DNA from: Melanopsichium pennsylvanicum
Lineage: Eukaryota; Basidiomycota; Ustilaginomycetes; Ustilaginales
DNA: 35,912 nucleotides
Assembly: GCA_900208305.1 (NCBI GenBank)
Contig: OAPG01000031.1
Span: 1-35,912 of the forward strand
Reading direction: 5' to 3'
Position 1 is the first letter of the stretch; the number at the start of each line of letters is the position of its first letter. This document shows positions 5,515 through 33,496 of the stretch, one piece after another. The notes below the pieces were generated by a model that was given only the letters and a program-made list of their open reading frames with translations, was not told the origin of the DNA and searched no databases. A program made the position numbers and the translations under genes.

Positions 5515-6279
5515 ATGGCATTCCTAATTCATTCACCACTAGAGCAATTTGAAGTAACTAGTCTTATTTCTCTAAATCTACCTGTACTTGGATACGTTAA
5601 TCTAAGTCTAACAAATCTAGGACTATATACAATTCTAACTGTATATCTAGTACTATCACTTCATATTATGGGAAGTAACAACCACCAACTAATTCCAAGT
5701 CGATGGAGTATTGCACTAGAAAGTAGTTTTGCTTCAGTACACGGACTAGTTAAATCACAAATTGGTGCTGCTAACGAGATGTACCTTCCATTTATCTACT
5801 CACTATTCTTCTTTATCCTAATTGCTAATCTAAGTGGTAACGTACCATATGGATTTACAGTAGCTACATCAATTATGGTAAGTATTGGTCTAAGTATGAC
5901 AATCTTTATTGGAGTTACAATTCTTGGTCTACGACTACACAAAGTACACTTCTTCTCATTCTTTGTTCCTTCAGGTACACCTCTAGGACTAGTACCTCTA
6001 CTAGTACCTATTGAGCTGATTTCATATCTAGCACGAGCTTTCTCACTTGGAGTTCGGCTATTTGCTAACGTTACAGCAGGACACGTTCTAATGAAAATCC
6101 TTTCAGGATTCCTGGCTCCTCTATTTACTTCTACTTTTATTGTTTCAGTACTGACTGTACTACCATTTATCATTTTTACTGGTATTATTGGACTAGAAAT
6201 TGCAGTTTCATTTATTCAAGCTTACGTATTCTGTGTTCTAACATGTTCATATCTTAAAGATGCTATTGATCTACATTAA
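5515..6279 (+). CDS. atp6: ATP synthase F0 subunit a (subunit 6)
   Basis: 254 residues. It forms the proton half-channels of F0 next to the c-ring. ISYLARAFSLGVRLFANVTAGH (split here by description only: ISYLARAFSLG then VRLFANVTAGH) contains the essential membrane Arg, and GLEIAVSFIQAYVF is the conserved last helix. A hydrophobic N-terminus MAFLIHSPLEQFEV fits fungal Atp6. The last 62 codons, from the motif AAAATCCTTTCAGGATTCCT at 6094, have a second diverged copy at 9181-9369. The intact gene therefore probably carries a 3' end brought in by the downstream element and displaced its original one. Confidence 0.96.
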   Translation: MAFLIHSPLEQFEVTSLISLNLPVLGYVNLSLTNLGLYTILTVYLVLSLHIMGSNNHQLIPSRWSIALESSFASVHGLVKSQIGAANEMYLPFIYSLFFFILIANLSGNVPYGFTVATSIMVSIGLSMTIFIGVTILGLRLHKVHFFSFFVPSGTPLGLVPLLVPIELISYLARAFSLGVRLFANVTAGHVLMKILSGFLAPLFTSTFIVSVLTVLPFIIFTGIIGLEIAVSFIQAYVFCVLTCSYLKDAIDLH

Positions 6280-6362
6280 ATGAGTAGAGGTTTTACTAAA
6301 GTTTCAATAATTCTAGTAACTAAAGTGCTAGTTGCTAATGAATCTTTTCTAAAAAAGATTAA

Positions 6363-6932
6363 TTGGATACTCCCCTTTCCTGCGGTACAGTATTCAAAAA
6401 TGTGTCCATCTTTTATACTTATACTAATCTGATGCAAATTTTTACTAGTATTAGTAGTAACTTTGATACTTCAATTAGCCCTCACAAATTTATTTCGATT
6501 CTCTACCGATTTATTTTTGAAGACCTGAAACAAATTGAGGTCATTAAATTTCCTTGAGATAAGAAAGAAAAGAATAAAATGAAGAAAGTAATAGAAAAGT
6601 ATGGTAAACCTAATCGTAATACTAGTAAAACTACGTCAGGTTTTATAATTATTGTGCCAATAGGAAGTGATAAAAAAGCATCCATTTATCACTCAGAATT
6701 TACAACACACATTTCTAGAACATGTTATAAATACCTATTAAAAAAAGAACCTGCAACACATAAAATTATGGATATGTGTAAAAAACATGGTGGAAATATT
6801 TATATTCTTCCGTATTCACACACCAACCTACGAAATCTGCCATTTAACGATATGAGAGATTCAATTCAAGTTATCCTAATTTATTTTATCTGAGTTATCC
6901 TAATTTTTAATAGTAGTAATCATAGTAAATAG
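6363..6932 (+). CDS. Unidentified ORF in the atp6 cassette, open only if TGA is Trp
   Basis: I do not recognise this frame. It is open from after TAA at 6360 to TAG at 6930 with two internal TGA codons (6555, 6891). The middle part, from ATG at 6579, encodes a basic, Lys-rich stretch (KKVIEKYGKPNRNTSKTT). A short direct repeat GTTATCCTAATTTT flanks the second TGA. It lies between atp6 and trnR-UCU, in DNA apparently brought by the 3'-end-replacing element. It may be a remnant of an endonuclease or chance coding. Confidence 0.3.
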
Positions 6933-6994
6933 AAACCCCTTGTAAAATCTTATTCGATTTTTTAGTCGCGCCAGCGCAGAAAAAGAAATTAAAA

Positions 6995-7065
6995 ATAAGA
7001 TAAATGGAATCGAACCAATACAAATTCATTAGAAGCGAACTACTCTACCTTTAAGTTATATCTCC
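6995..7065 (-). tRNA. trnR: tRNA-Arg (UCU)
   Basis: On the minus strand: acceptor GGAGATA/TATCTTA (one end mismatch), D stem ACTT/GAGT, anticodon loop CTTCTAA (UCU), T loop TTCGATT. Reads AGA/AGG. It sits inside the atp6 cassette, between atp6 and the GIY-YIG ORF, in the opposite orientation to both. A second trnR (UCG) lies at 34425. Confidence 0.8.
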
Positions 7066-7369
7066 TTATCTATTCTTATACAAAAGTTTTTACCAATTTG
7101 AGCTTAAAAGTTAGTGAAGAAAAAGAAATCTCTAGAATTATCAAATTAACTATGCAATTTTAATGTCTACATAATAGTTACAATATGTACTATGAACTTA
7201 ATTATTTATTTTGAAATGACTAACAAATTTTTCTCAAGTAGTATTACTAGAATCATTTCAAATATTACTATTATAGTACTTCTAGTAGTATATTATTTTC
7301 ATCTATTTGGTTTCATGGTTTAGGGATTCTTTAATGTTTATACTTCTTATGTATATTCTATGAAAAGTG

Positions 7370-31655: not shown

Positions 31656-31674
31656 CACATCATTGTTATTTACT

Positions 31675-32176
31675 ATGCTTGCTGCTGCTAAATACATCGG
31701 ATCAGGTGTAGCTGCTCTAGGACTAATTGGAGCTGGAATCGGAGTTGGAATCGTATTCGCTGCTCTAATCCAAGGAGTTTCACGAAACCCTAGCCTACGA
31801 GGTTAAATGCTGGCCTCTACAGGGTGAATTGCAAGGACATCTTATCTAAGACAATTTGCAGCTAAGCTTAAGTCAGTGCCCATCTAGTAATAAACTAGAT
31901 AGTGATTTAAGAAAGTTCAACGACTAATCGGTGAGTTGCACTAACAATAACCCGGACACGAGCGCCCTGCTGCTTATATACTATTATAAGTAGAAGACAT
32001 AGTCTAATCTAGTAGGTGACTACTAGCTAACTTATTAAAAAGAGTTAGGGCATACTATCTATATAGTATGTTTAATACCCATGCAACTATTTACTTACGC
32101 AATTCTAGGATTTGCTCTATCAGAGGCTACTGGACTATTTGCTCTAATGGTTTCATTCCTGCTACTTTACTCATAA
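31675..32176 (+). CDS. atp9: ATP synthase F0 subunit c (subunit 9), two exons
   Basis: Exons 31675-31803 and 32084-32176 give 73 residues: [20 protein letters not shown], then [10 protein letters not shown], then [20 protein letters not shown] to LLLYS. It forms the proton-carrying c-ring; the essential carboxylate is the Glu of ALSEATG in exon 2. The polar loop RNPSLRG is followed at once by the intron. Exon 1 ends GGT and the intron ends G. The upstream in-frame extension (31612-31674) is a shadow: it derives from intron-like DNA, and the family starts at MLAAAKYIG. Exon 2 has a decayed second copy at 33380-33496. Confidence 0.95.
31804..32083 (+). mobile_element. Small group I intron in atp9, near copy of the rnl L2449 core
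   Basis: 280 nt, no ORF. Positions 31821-31966 (GGGTGAATTGCAAGGACATC to ACACGAGCGCC) match the rnl L2449 core at 22188-22341 (inverted) with few changes. AGACATAGTCTAATC near 31996-32010 is the P7/S element. Host boundaries differ (GAGGT/CAACT versus GGGAT/AACAG), so the intron has moved to an unrelated gene. Confidence 0.9.
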
Positions 32177-32278
32177 TTGAGTAATTAATCCTAAGGTAAG
32201 TCAACCTATCCGGGGGAAATCAATATTTCCCCTTTCCCAGTCAGTATAGACTAACAATTTCTTTATTTCAATTTAACT

Positions 32279-33378
32279 ATGTTCAAATTTACTACTATTC
32301 TTTTTTCTAAGCGAGAAGTTTGGCTTAATCGAATTAAACGTGAAGCTATTGTTAAAAATGAAATTCTTAATAATAGCAAACCCACTGTAGCTAACATTAG
32401 TGCAGCACTAGATCTACCAGAAGGAGTTATTACTGAAGAACTACTATCAATTTGTGAAAATGTAAAAACAATTGAACTAGGACTACCTGTACCTAACTCA
32501 GAAAATGTTATAGCATTTTCTACACAAGTAGGACCTGAAAATAGTACCTAGAAAGTACCTGGTTGCTATTATATCTATTGACCGAACAATCAAGAACTAG
32601 GTACTTATGTTGGACACTCTATTCATCTAGGAAAACGGATTAAAGATCATGCTCTATAAATCGGAGATTTCTCGGGTCTACAAACTTCTACAGGAAAACT
32701 AGTACAAACTGCAGGATCTAATGCTGTAGTACGAGTATACATTCCAGACCCTTCACTACTGCCAGAACATATTACTATGGCACTATTTGTTCTAATTCTA
32801 GAACAATATCTATTTTTTTCTACTTAAGCCAACTATCAATCGTGCTTTTGTTGCTTCTCCTGGTTATAGTAACCCAGATATGGATAATACTGAGCATATT
32901 GAAAAAGTAGGTAAAGATCTACACATTTATTGGGTAAATGATAATACCTACTATCATCTGTCTTCTCTTACTAATCTTTCTGCTCTTAGTTATCTAATGA
33001 ATAAAGGACGTAAGTGGGCTGCCACTCGATCGGGGTGGTTTCTATCATCATCAACTATTCCTATCCAAAACCATTCTATATAATTCCGTATCTCTTCCTA
33101 TATCTGAGATTCAACTAGTTGAGTTTCTTCAATGGCTAAGACTAAAGCCTAGTATTACTTCACCTTTTTGTGTGGAAGTAACTAATGTAACTGATTATAC
33201 AAAAAGTTACTATAAATATATAGCTGATGCCGCTAAACATCTTGACTGTAATGTCAGTTCTATTTCAGTTAGTCCTATTAAACCTCTTAAGGATAAGTAT
33301 CTTTTTAACTTTATTGATGTAATAGAATACGTCAAACAGACACAAATACCACCATTTGAGTATCTAAAAGTAAAATAA
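32279..33378 (+). pseudogene. Free-standing GIY-YIG endonuclease gene behind atp9 (family member b), broken
   Basis: The first 90 codons are open (MFKFTTILFSKREVWLNRIK, ANISAALDLPEGVITEELL) up to TAG at 32549. The same frame goes on as GCYYIYW(TGA)PNNQELGTY and VGHSIHLGKRIKDH, the GIY-YIG core, then a TAA near 32657, a Glu block VLILEQYLFFS, a shift near 32825, AFVASPGYSNPDMDNTEHIE, and a last open part to 33378. It has the same block order as 11420-12453 and 16494-17260. It starts about 100 nt after atp9 and ends at the displaced atp9 exon, so it is the nuclease of the atp9 cassette. At least two nonsense codons inactivate it if read literally. Confidence 0.8.
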
Positions 33379-33379
33379 T

Positions 33380-33496
33380 TTTATTTAGTTACGCGATCCT
33401 AGGATTCGCTCTATCAGTAAAAATTTATAATAAAAATTTTAACTACTGGACTATTTGCTCCAATGGTTTCATTCCTTCTACGACGGCCCCTCATAA
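33380..33496 (+). pseudogene. Displaced, degraded 3' end of atp9
   Basis: [10 protein letters not shown], then an AT palindrome (TAAAAATTTATAATAAAAAT, near 33417-33441), then TTGLFAPMVSFLL in a shifted frame and CATAA close to the end. It corresponds to exon 2 ([20 protein letters not shown]). The insert falls exactly at the essential Glu codon. It lies straight after the GIY-YIG gene, as in the atp6 and cox2 cassettes. Confidence 0.85.

Follow-up and report, generated by a model that had tools for sequence, protein, structure and literature searches.

How does a core mitochondrial gene come to be followed by a nuclease sequence and, beyond it, by a second, diverged version of its own 3' end? 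The question is raised three times, by atp6, cox2 and atp9, in a stretch of 35,912 nucleotides (nt) of mitochondrial DNA (mtDNA) from the fungus Melanopsichium pennsylvanicum (contig OAPG01000031.1; the whole stretch is called the window below), which was read with genetic code 4 and carries atp6, cox2, rps3, rRNA, nad6, atp9 and parts of cox1 and nad5. A preliminary description of this DNA had reported that behind each of the three complete genes come GIY-YIG nuclease sequence and a displaced copy of the gene's own 3' end, in this order. All three units were recovered in searches confined to the few kilobases downstream of each gene, with E-values for the displaced ends of 3e-39 (atp6), 1e-99 (cox2) and 5e-14 and 1e-9 (two pieces in atp9). 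The same layout is found outside the window, in nad3 and nad1 of the same mtDNA, which brings the total to five genes. We consider it highly probable that free-standing homing nucleases were inserted together with substitute 3' ends, displacing the resident ends. The assembly that we searched holds 21.1 Mb in 61 contigs, many of them mitochondrial and one of them the window; C-numbers denote contigs of this assembly, P-numbers denote listed protein homologues, and L011-L019 are stretches of other contigs that together with the window make up most, perhaps not all, of the mtDNA.

Gene, nuclease and displaced end in five units

The intact atp6 gene (5515..6279, plus strand; Pfam ATP-synt_A, E 6e-56) appears to be a composite, with residues 1 to ~185 of the resident type and residues ~186-254 forming the incoming tail. 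Behind it lie a tRNA-Arg(UCU) gene (6994..7066, minus strand; found by ARAGORN, Rfam 49.0 bits) and a putative GIY-YIG nuclease open reading frame (ORF) of 519 amino acids (7289..8848, plus strand), whose Pfam GIY-YIG match (E 0.0089) falls below the cut-off and whose motif takes the variant form VVYSF...VNVGSS. A search of 5.8 billion proteins returned a sole homologue of this nuclease, P0241 (74% over 39%), which reads on where the window has an in-frame stop at 8846-8848; a C-terminal remnant follows behind the stop (8849..9058, plus strand; 64% to P0241 residues 208-285, E 6e-29). The displaced atp6 3' end, which we take to be the resident one, is found at 9172..9369 on the plus strand, matches the intact gene at 148 of 192 nt (77%) and retains a frame that is open up to the stop. 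This layout is no accident of one contig: a displaced end stands behind 16 of the 18 full-length atp6 copies in the assembly, and the other two copies are located at contig ends, where C35 stops 39 bases behind the gene and C54 has too little room.

In the cox2 unit, the intact gene (10485..11246, plus strand), whose incoming tail would begin at about residue 128, is followed by the eroded nuclease A (11423..12456, minus strand), which is spread over several frames and matches GIY-YIG (E 1.5e-4) and NUMOD1 (E 0.0016), both below the Pfam cut-off. The displaced cox2 end (12678..13031, plus strand) agrees with the intact gene at 297 of 367 nt (81%) and carries four frame-breaking deletions, of 7, 1, 7 and 7 nt. 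Three of the four are thus exactly 7 nt long, and the last 42 aligned bases before the final deletion show no difference from the intact gene, which looks like conversion. A remnant of a second nuclease, B, is located behind this end (13105..13510, plus strand); blocks of it match the cox2 extensions of P0121 (E 2e-9) and P0123 (E 6e-4), these and all other nuclease block matches having been scored in a small fragment set, and its final stretch, 13394-13510, was matched to P0123 by eye. No third cox2 copy was detected behind nuclease B on either strand of 13030-14700, where the scores, 19 and 15, stayed under the shuffle maxima of 21. Since nuclease A belongs to another group, with blocks in common with the atp9 nuclease, the presence of remnant B suggests that cox2 probably underwent two or more invasions.

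The atp9 unit differs in containing an intron. Exon 1 (31675..31803) and exon 2 (32084..32176), the end in use, are separated by an ORF-less group I intron of 280 nt (31804..32083; Rfam Intron_gpI 73.6 bits, E 3e-18; boundaries taken from the reading frame). An eroded GIY-YIG nuclease in several frames follows (32279..33378; NUMOD1 E 0.021, below cut-off), which is homologous to cox2 nuclease A in four blocks (E 5e-8 to 6e-4), and then a displaced and decayed exon 2 in two pieces (33381..33481), all on the plus strand. The homology of the displaced exon starts 3-4 nt into exon 2, that is, past the intron insertion site. This is not a mobile intron with its own ORF, since the nuclease remnant is outside the intron, downstream of the stop codon that ends exon 2; the intron, the new exon 2 and the nuclease probably moved together.

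On contig C32 the nad3 gene runs from 10863 downwards on the minus strand, with a nuclease behind the gene that is partly in frame and a broken displaced end at 9245-9067. On C25, nad1 (3812-4804) is followed by a GIY-YIG ORF (5425-6021, E 4.7e-6) and by a displaced end (6554-6643) made up of the last 29 codons and the stop. In the mtDNA stretches examined, no displaced 3' end was found for nad2, nad4, nad6, nad4L, cox3, cob exon 1, three nad5 pieces, the last cox1 exon or rps3; the survey took in neither the other cox1 and cob exons nor atp8.

Probably separate histories of intact and displaced ends

The two cox2 ends differ at 39 third, two first and one second codon positions over 300 aligned in-frame bases (dS 1.79 and dN/dS 0.02 in the first 51 codons), and the two nad1 ends at 12 third and one first position over 87 such bases. 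Differences so dominated by third positions indicate that, in both genes, the two ends long worked as genes in different lineages and met later. The residues of cox2 point to which end is the unusual one. Displaced residues 128-181 are identical to those of P0124 and P0125, and among the 120 listed homologues that were compared, 110 are nearer the displaced end, nine are nearer the intact end and one is equal. A129, E163 and F168 of the intact gene occur together in P0127 alone among these 120; A129 and E163 are also present in P0121 and P0123, the latter a cox2 fused to a GIY-YIG domain. The record name of P0123 is legible as 'Ustil', and we presume the species to be Ustilago bromivora.

For atp6, the best 120 of 7077 homologues were aligned, and 53 of these were used in protein trees. 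The body of the window protein (WIN) is identical to P0004 at 175 of 183 residues, and the tail of P0004 matches the intact end at 46 of 64 residues and the displaced end at 58 of 64. The best break between WIN and P0004 falls after residue 185, with differences at 8 of 185 residues before it and 20 of 69 after it, a contrast reached in none of the 2000 shuffles run for each breakpoint test. The displaced copy begins at residue 190, within five residues of this breakpoint, and P0004 shows a break at the same residue against P0001, P0002 and P0003 (0, 0 and 1 of 2000 shuffles). Resident-type protein ends occur in P0004 for atp6 and in P0122, P0124 and P0125 for cox2, which makes these proteins candidates for products of cassette-free alleles. 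An N-terminal break between WIN and P0008 (1 of 2000 shuffles) was not taken as recombination, since the N-terminus seems more variable.

The trees built from the two parts of atp6 disagree. In the body tree (first 183 residues) WIN groups with P0001 and P0004 (support 99/76), while in the tail tree (last 64 residues) the intact end groups with P0001 and P0002 (99/96), joins P0005, P0007, P0008, P0011, P0066, P0067 and P0096 (100/96) and then P0003 (97/90). Those seven proteins, the tail-A group, combine tails near the intact end with bodies that belong elsewhere. The displaced end groups with P0004 (96/90). In approximately unbiased (AU) tests, placing the intact tail with P0001 and P0004 was rejected (p 9e-5), as was placing it with P0001-P0004 (p 6e-4); for the displaced tail, grouping with P0001 (p 0.012) and with P0001-P0004 (p 0.024) was rejected. 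Moving the bodies of WIN, P0001 and P0002 to the tail-A group was also rejected (p 0.040), and a body clade of WIN and P0001-P0004 was not (p 0.57). An additional protein, P0079, has a body identical to that of P0001 at 182 of 183 residues and displaced-type residues at the junction, after which it is cut short.

These data bear on the earlier proposal that the host genes are chimeras with foreign tails. It is supported in atp6 by the discordance of tail and body and by the breakpoint, and in cox2 by the residues and the divergence pattern; for atp9, nad3 and nad1 the direction of exchange would follow by analogy.

A homing explanation and its alternatives

We propose that each unit began as a free-standing gene for a GIY-YIG nuclease, to which a variant 3' end of a core gene was linked. 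The nuclease would cut within the coding region of an allele that lacked the cassette, and repair would copy the unit from the presumed donor into the cut allele, probably with loss of the cut site. The host gene would then consist of a resident 5' part and an incoming 3' end, with the nuclease gene behind the stop codon, and the resident 3' end, stranded past the nuclease gene, would decay. In cox2 there were probably at least two such events, and in atp9 the ORF-less group I intron probably travelled with the unit, with the nuclease outside the intron.

Several observations weigh against this explanation. P0001, the closest full-length body relative, carries the intact-type tail of atp6, as do P0002 and P0003, and of the listed homologues, 119 have a full tail, which is closer to the displaced end in 70, closer to the intact end in 36 and equally close to both in 13. 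Since P0001-P0003 carry the intact type, parsimony leaves the polarity of the atp6 tail types unsettled; given these proteins and the mixed counts, the polarity is drawn from P0004, P0079 and the mechanism rather than from a majority. The prediction in the preliminary description that the displaced atp6 end would side with the gene body and the intact end would not holds only in part: the grouping with P0004 and the AU rejection agree with it, the tails of P0001-P0003 do not. The branch of the body tree that separates the tail-A group is weak (69/63), and part of the clades submitted to AU tests were chosen after the trees had been viewed. The third-position excess between the atp6 ends is likewise weak (23 of 47 differences, p 0.019; dN/dS 0.35). 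In cox2, no breakpoint was found between WIN and P0122 at the protein level (1526 of 2000 shuffles were as strong), and nuclease B stands behind a resident-type end here and behind intact-type ends in P0121 and P0123, which leaves the order of the cox2 invasions unclear. The spacer between atp6 and its nuclease holds a tRNA gene, for which a minimal cassette has no need. Codon usage, considered as a mark of foreign tails, was discarded, as it gave no signal between intact and displaced ends (p 0.73 for atp6, 0.11 for cox2, 0.36 for nad1). Finally, DNA of a cassette-free relative was yielded neither by an atp6 scan of viral contigs, which gave no relative's DNA at all, nor by a scan of genome contigs. 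The sole hit of the latter was a mitochondrial contig from a distant fungus (L020, 68%), of which 16.8 kb were examined; none of the genes matched there has a displaced end. This 49-kb contig, with its fungal mitochondrial genes, is filed in a bacterial (Blastococcus) genome record.

Could the polarity be the reverse, with the intact end resident and a nuclease carrying a foreign 3' end having landed downstream of the stop codon? The sharing of the intact atp6 tail type by P0001-P0003 and the tRNA between intact atp6 and the nuclease would fit such an event, and transposition of a nuclease to behind the stop codon is favoured in the account of Phlebia (in the relevant passages of PMC4019555). 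We nevertheless regard it as unlikely: the protein breakpoint between WIN and P0004 lies no more than five residues from the start of the displaced copy, the common residues of cox2 are in the displaced end and the rare ones in the intact end, and P0079 joins a body nearly identical to that of P0001 to displaced-type junction residues. It is even harder to envisage that each 3' end was partially duplicated in place and that the spare copy then drifted. The copies do stand in tandem on the same strand, but drift would hit all codon positions, and the cox2 and nad1 copies differ almost only at third positions, while the two atp6 copies group with different proteins. We judge this very improbable; the data contradict it for atp6, cox2 and nad1, and it may still apply to the decayed copies of atp9 and nad3. 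That both ends serve as alternative C-termini through splicing or processing is barely credible. The displaced atp6 and nad1 ends have kept open frames and stops, and alternative C-termini are annotated in Phlebia, according to the same part of PMC4019555; against this, the displaced ends of cox2, atp9 and nad3 are broken, and no intron family match was obtained in 5400-13400, which spans the atp6 and cox2 cassettes, even at E <= 1.

Nucleases, a cassette tRNA and known systems

Judged from their sequences, the nuclease ORFs of the atp6, cox2 and atp9 units all look damaged, and the nucleases now look mostly inactive. In all window ORFs scanned, GIY-YIG matches stayed below the Pfam cut-off; they exceeded it in the nad1 cassette (27.2 vs 22.6) and in P0123 (29.0). 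Descent of all nucleases from a single family was considered and is not supported, as the matches fall into separate groups: cox2 A goes with atp9 and nad1 with nad3; P0241 is the single match of the atp6 nuclease, and those of cox2 nuclease B are P0121 and P0123. There are also a few weaker matches between groups, such as nad1 with P0123 (E 1e-4) and cox2 B with nad3 (E 5e-4). Two more GIY-YIG remnants are present beyond the rRNA region, at 18761-19817 and 16797-17024, both on the minus strand; the second is related to the cox2/atp9 group.

Other displaced or repeated pieces were encountered in the assembly. Well away from the cox2 gene, the interval between nad2 and nad1 contains a stray cox2 3' end (L011:3168-3224; 43 of 53 nt) that uses TGA for Trp, and a 72-bp cox2 3' fragment on contig C1 (2069201-2069272), at coordinates above 2 Mb, is perhaps a nuclear copy. 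The ~55 first codons of nad1 are duplicated at L014:3373-4386 (C32), and also on C42 and C51, where they run into an unrelated frame of ~280 residues; this piece is a displaced 5' end, not a 3' end, and Pfam recognises its nad1 part only. The window also contains three repeated intron-like blocks with LAGLIDADG ORFs (24039-28677), the repeat pieces of which are 61-93% alike.

A second tRNA-Arg(UCU) gene, unlike the first (48.9 bits), is located between the nuclease and the displaced end of nad1, and no further one was seen in the window and L011-L019. The codons that such a tRNA would read, AGA and AGG (AGR), are absent from the 64 Arg codons of 14 core segments and account for 12 of the 20 Arg codons of the atp6 nuclease and for 10 of 126 in 22 other pieces of selfish ORFs, the atp6 nuclease being higher than the latter (p 3.7e-7); its share of TTR among Leu codons is no different from theirs (p 0.59). 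These counts exclude rps3, a nad1-cassette frame at 4995-5312 (AGR 1, CGN 2) and two unproven frames in the atp6-nuclease spacer (AGR 7, CGN 3). Over the 14 core segments, TGA accounts for 0 of 46 Trp codons and TTR for 5 of 501 Leu codons, alongside the lack of AGR; the tRNA-Trp has the anticodon CCA, and no tRNA-Leu(UAA) was seen in the window or L011-L019. Import of tRNAs for an element's own codons is a strategy proposed for some viruses. It is conceivable, though we think it rather doubtful, that the atp6 cassette imports its own tRNA-Arg(UCU) to read, for its nuclease, AGA and AGG codons that the core genes have abandoned. Such a homing element would bring, besides its nuclease, the sequence that mends the gene after cutting and a tRNA for translating the nuclease. 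The nad1 nuclease ORF argues against this, with AGR at 0 of 6 Arg codons, and the atp6 nuclease is also richer in A/T at first positions (0.64 vs 0.53-0.57 in other ORFs), exceeds the core genes in its TTR share (p 0.0007) and contains TTA and TGA codons, for neither of which a tRNA was seen. Moreover, the AGR pattern was found post hoc, and all codon combinations are present in Ustilago maydis genes, according to the part of PMC13028006 that deals with them. Published counts suggest one tRNA-Arg in each of two other smuts (from the tallies given in PMC13028006 and PMC4466345).

The preliminary description had suggested that these units may constitute a class in need of definition. They belong instead to the known class of free-standing nuclease cassettes with a hybrid host gene, of the Allomyces/Glomus type, already described in several fungi, a smut among them. 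The atp6 hybrid of Allomyces macrogynus was reportedly presented by Paquin in 1994. A foreign atp6 C-terminus was acquired there through a mobile endonuclease ORF (as cited in PMC3630166 and PMC4019555), with one gene affected against five here. In Glomus sp., as set out in the sections of Beaudet 2013 on these genes (PMC3630166), cassettes in atp6, atp9, cox2 and nad3 comprise an inserted C-terminus, a nuclease ORF and the native C-terminus downstream, as in our units; native ends cluster with relatives, and hybrids are expressed. Its cox2 has a group I intron [684-922] directly before the inserted end [923-1018], comparable to atp9 here. Unlike the present nucleases, those of Glomus are LAGLIDADG except in atp9 (GIY-YIG), and neither a stacked second nuclease nor a tRNA inside a cassette is mentioned in those sections. 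The smut is Sporisorium scitamineum, where the passages of PMC4466345 on duplicated genes describe atp9, cox1, nad1, nad5 and nad6 followed by N-terminus-less duplicates with GIY-YIG ORFs between, and propose the same mechanism as we do. That gene set overlaps ours in atp9 and nad1 only; in those passages no trees or divergence tests appear, and free-standing homing endonuclease genes are called too fragmented to annotate. For Tremella fuciformis, the corresponding passages of PMC7315562 report that a single species has core genes both with a duplicated piece and lacking one, and give a replacement model with cDNA support. In Saccharomyces, free-standing 3' nucleases (ORF1 behind cox2, ORF4/ENS2 at the end of atp6) drive exchange of neighbouring coding sequence; unlike here, the frames are of LAGLIDADG type, and a displaced end is not mentioned in the parts of PMC8209160 concerned.

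The atp9 unit has parallels of its own. In the Armillaria passages of PMC6506933, an atp9 intron is present in two of four species, the same two in which a free-standing nuclease is accompanied by an additional copy of exon 2, placed by the authors upstream of atp9; a link among free nucleases, introns and atp9 in general is discussed in a portion of PMC7487136. Collaborative homing of phage introns by an outside nuclease (Bonocora & Shub 2009 and Zeng 2009, as cited in PMC6279837) resembles the atp9 unit, with its ORF-less intron, its outside nuclease and its displaced exon that starts at the insertion site. It differs in that the replaced exon of atp9 lies between intron and nuclease; in atp9 the insertion site would be a putative nuclease target. 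The atp9 unit looks like the predicted intermediate between a free nuclease and a mobile intron. Less ordinary in the present mtDNA are the two nuclease remnants in cox2, the displaced atp9 end at the intron site and tRNA-Arg(UCU) in two cassettes; neither a tRNA-bearing cassette nor a two-layer stack was found in the open-access literature, as represented mainly by titles and abstracts and by a few full passages.

Taken together, five scarred genes, one of them with two nuclease remnants, suggest a nuclease-driven turnover of core-gene 3' ends in this lineage. In that case phylogenies and barcodes built on whole atp6 or whole cox2 would mix two histories. If the reading of the tRNA were true, a homing element could also import the means of reading its own codons.

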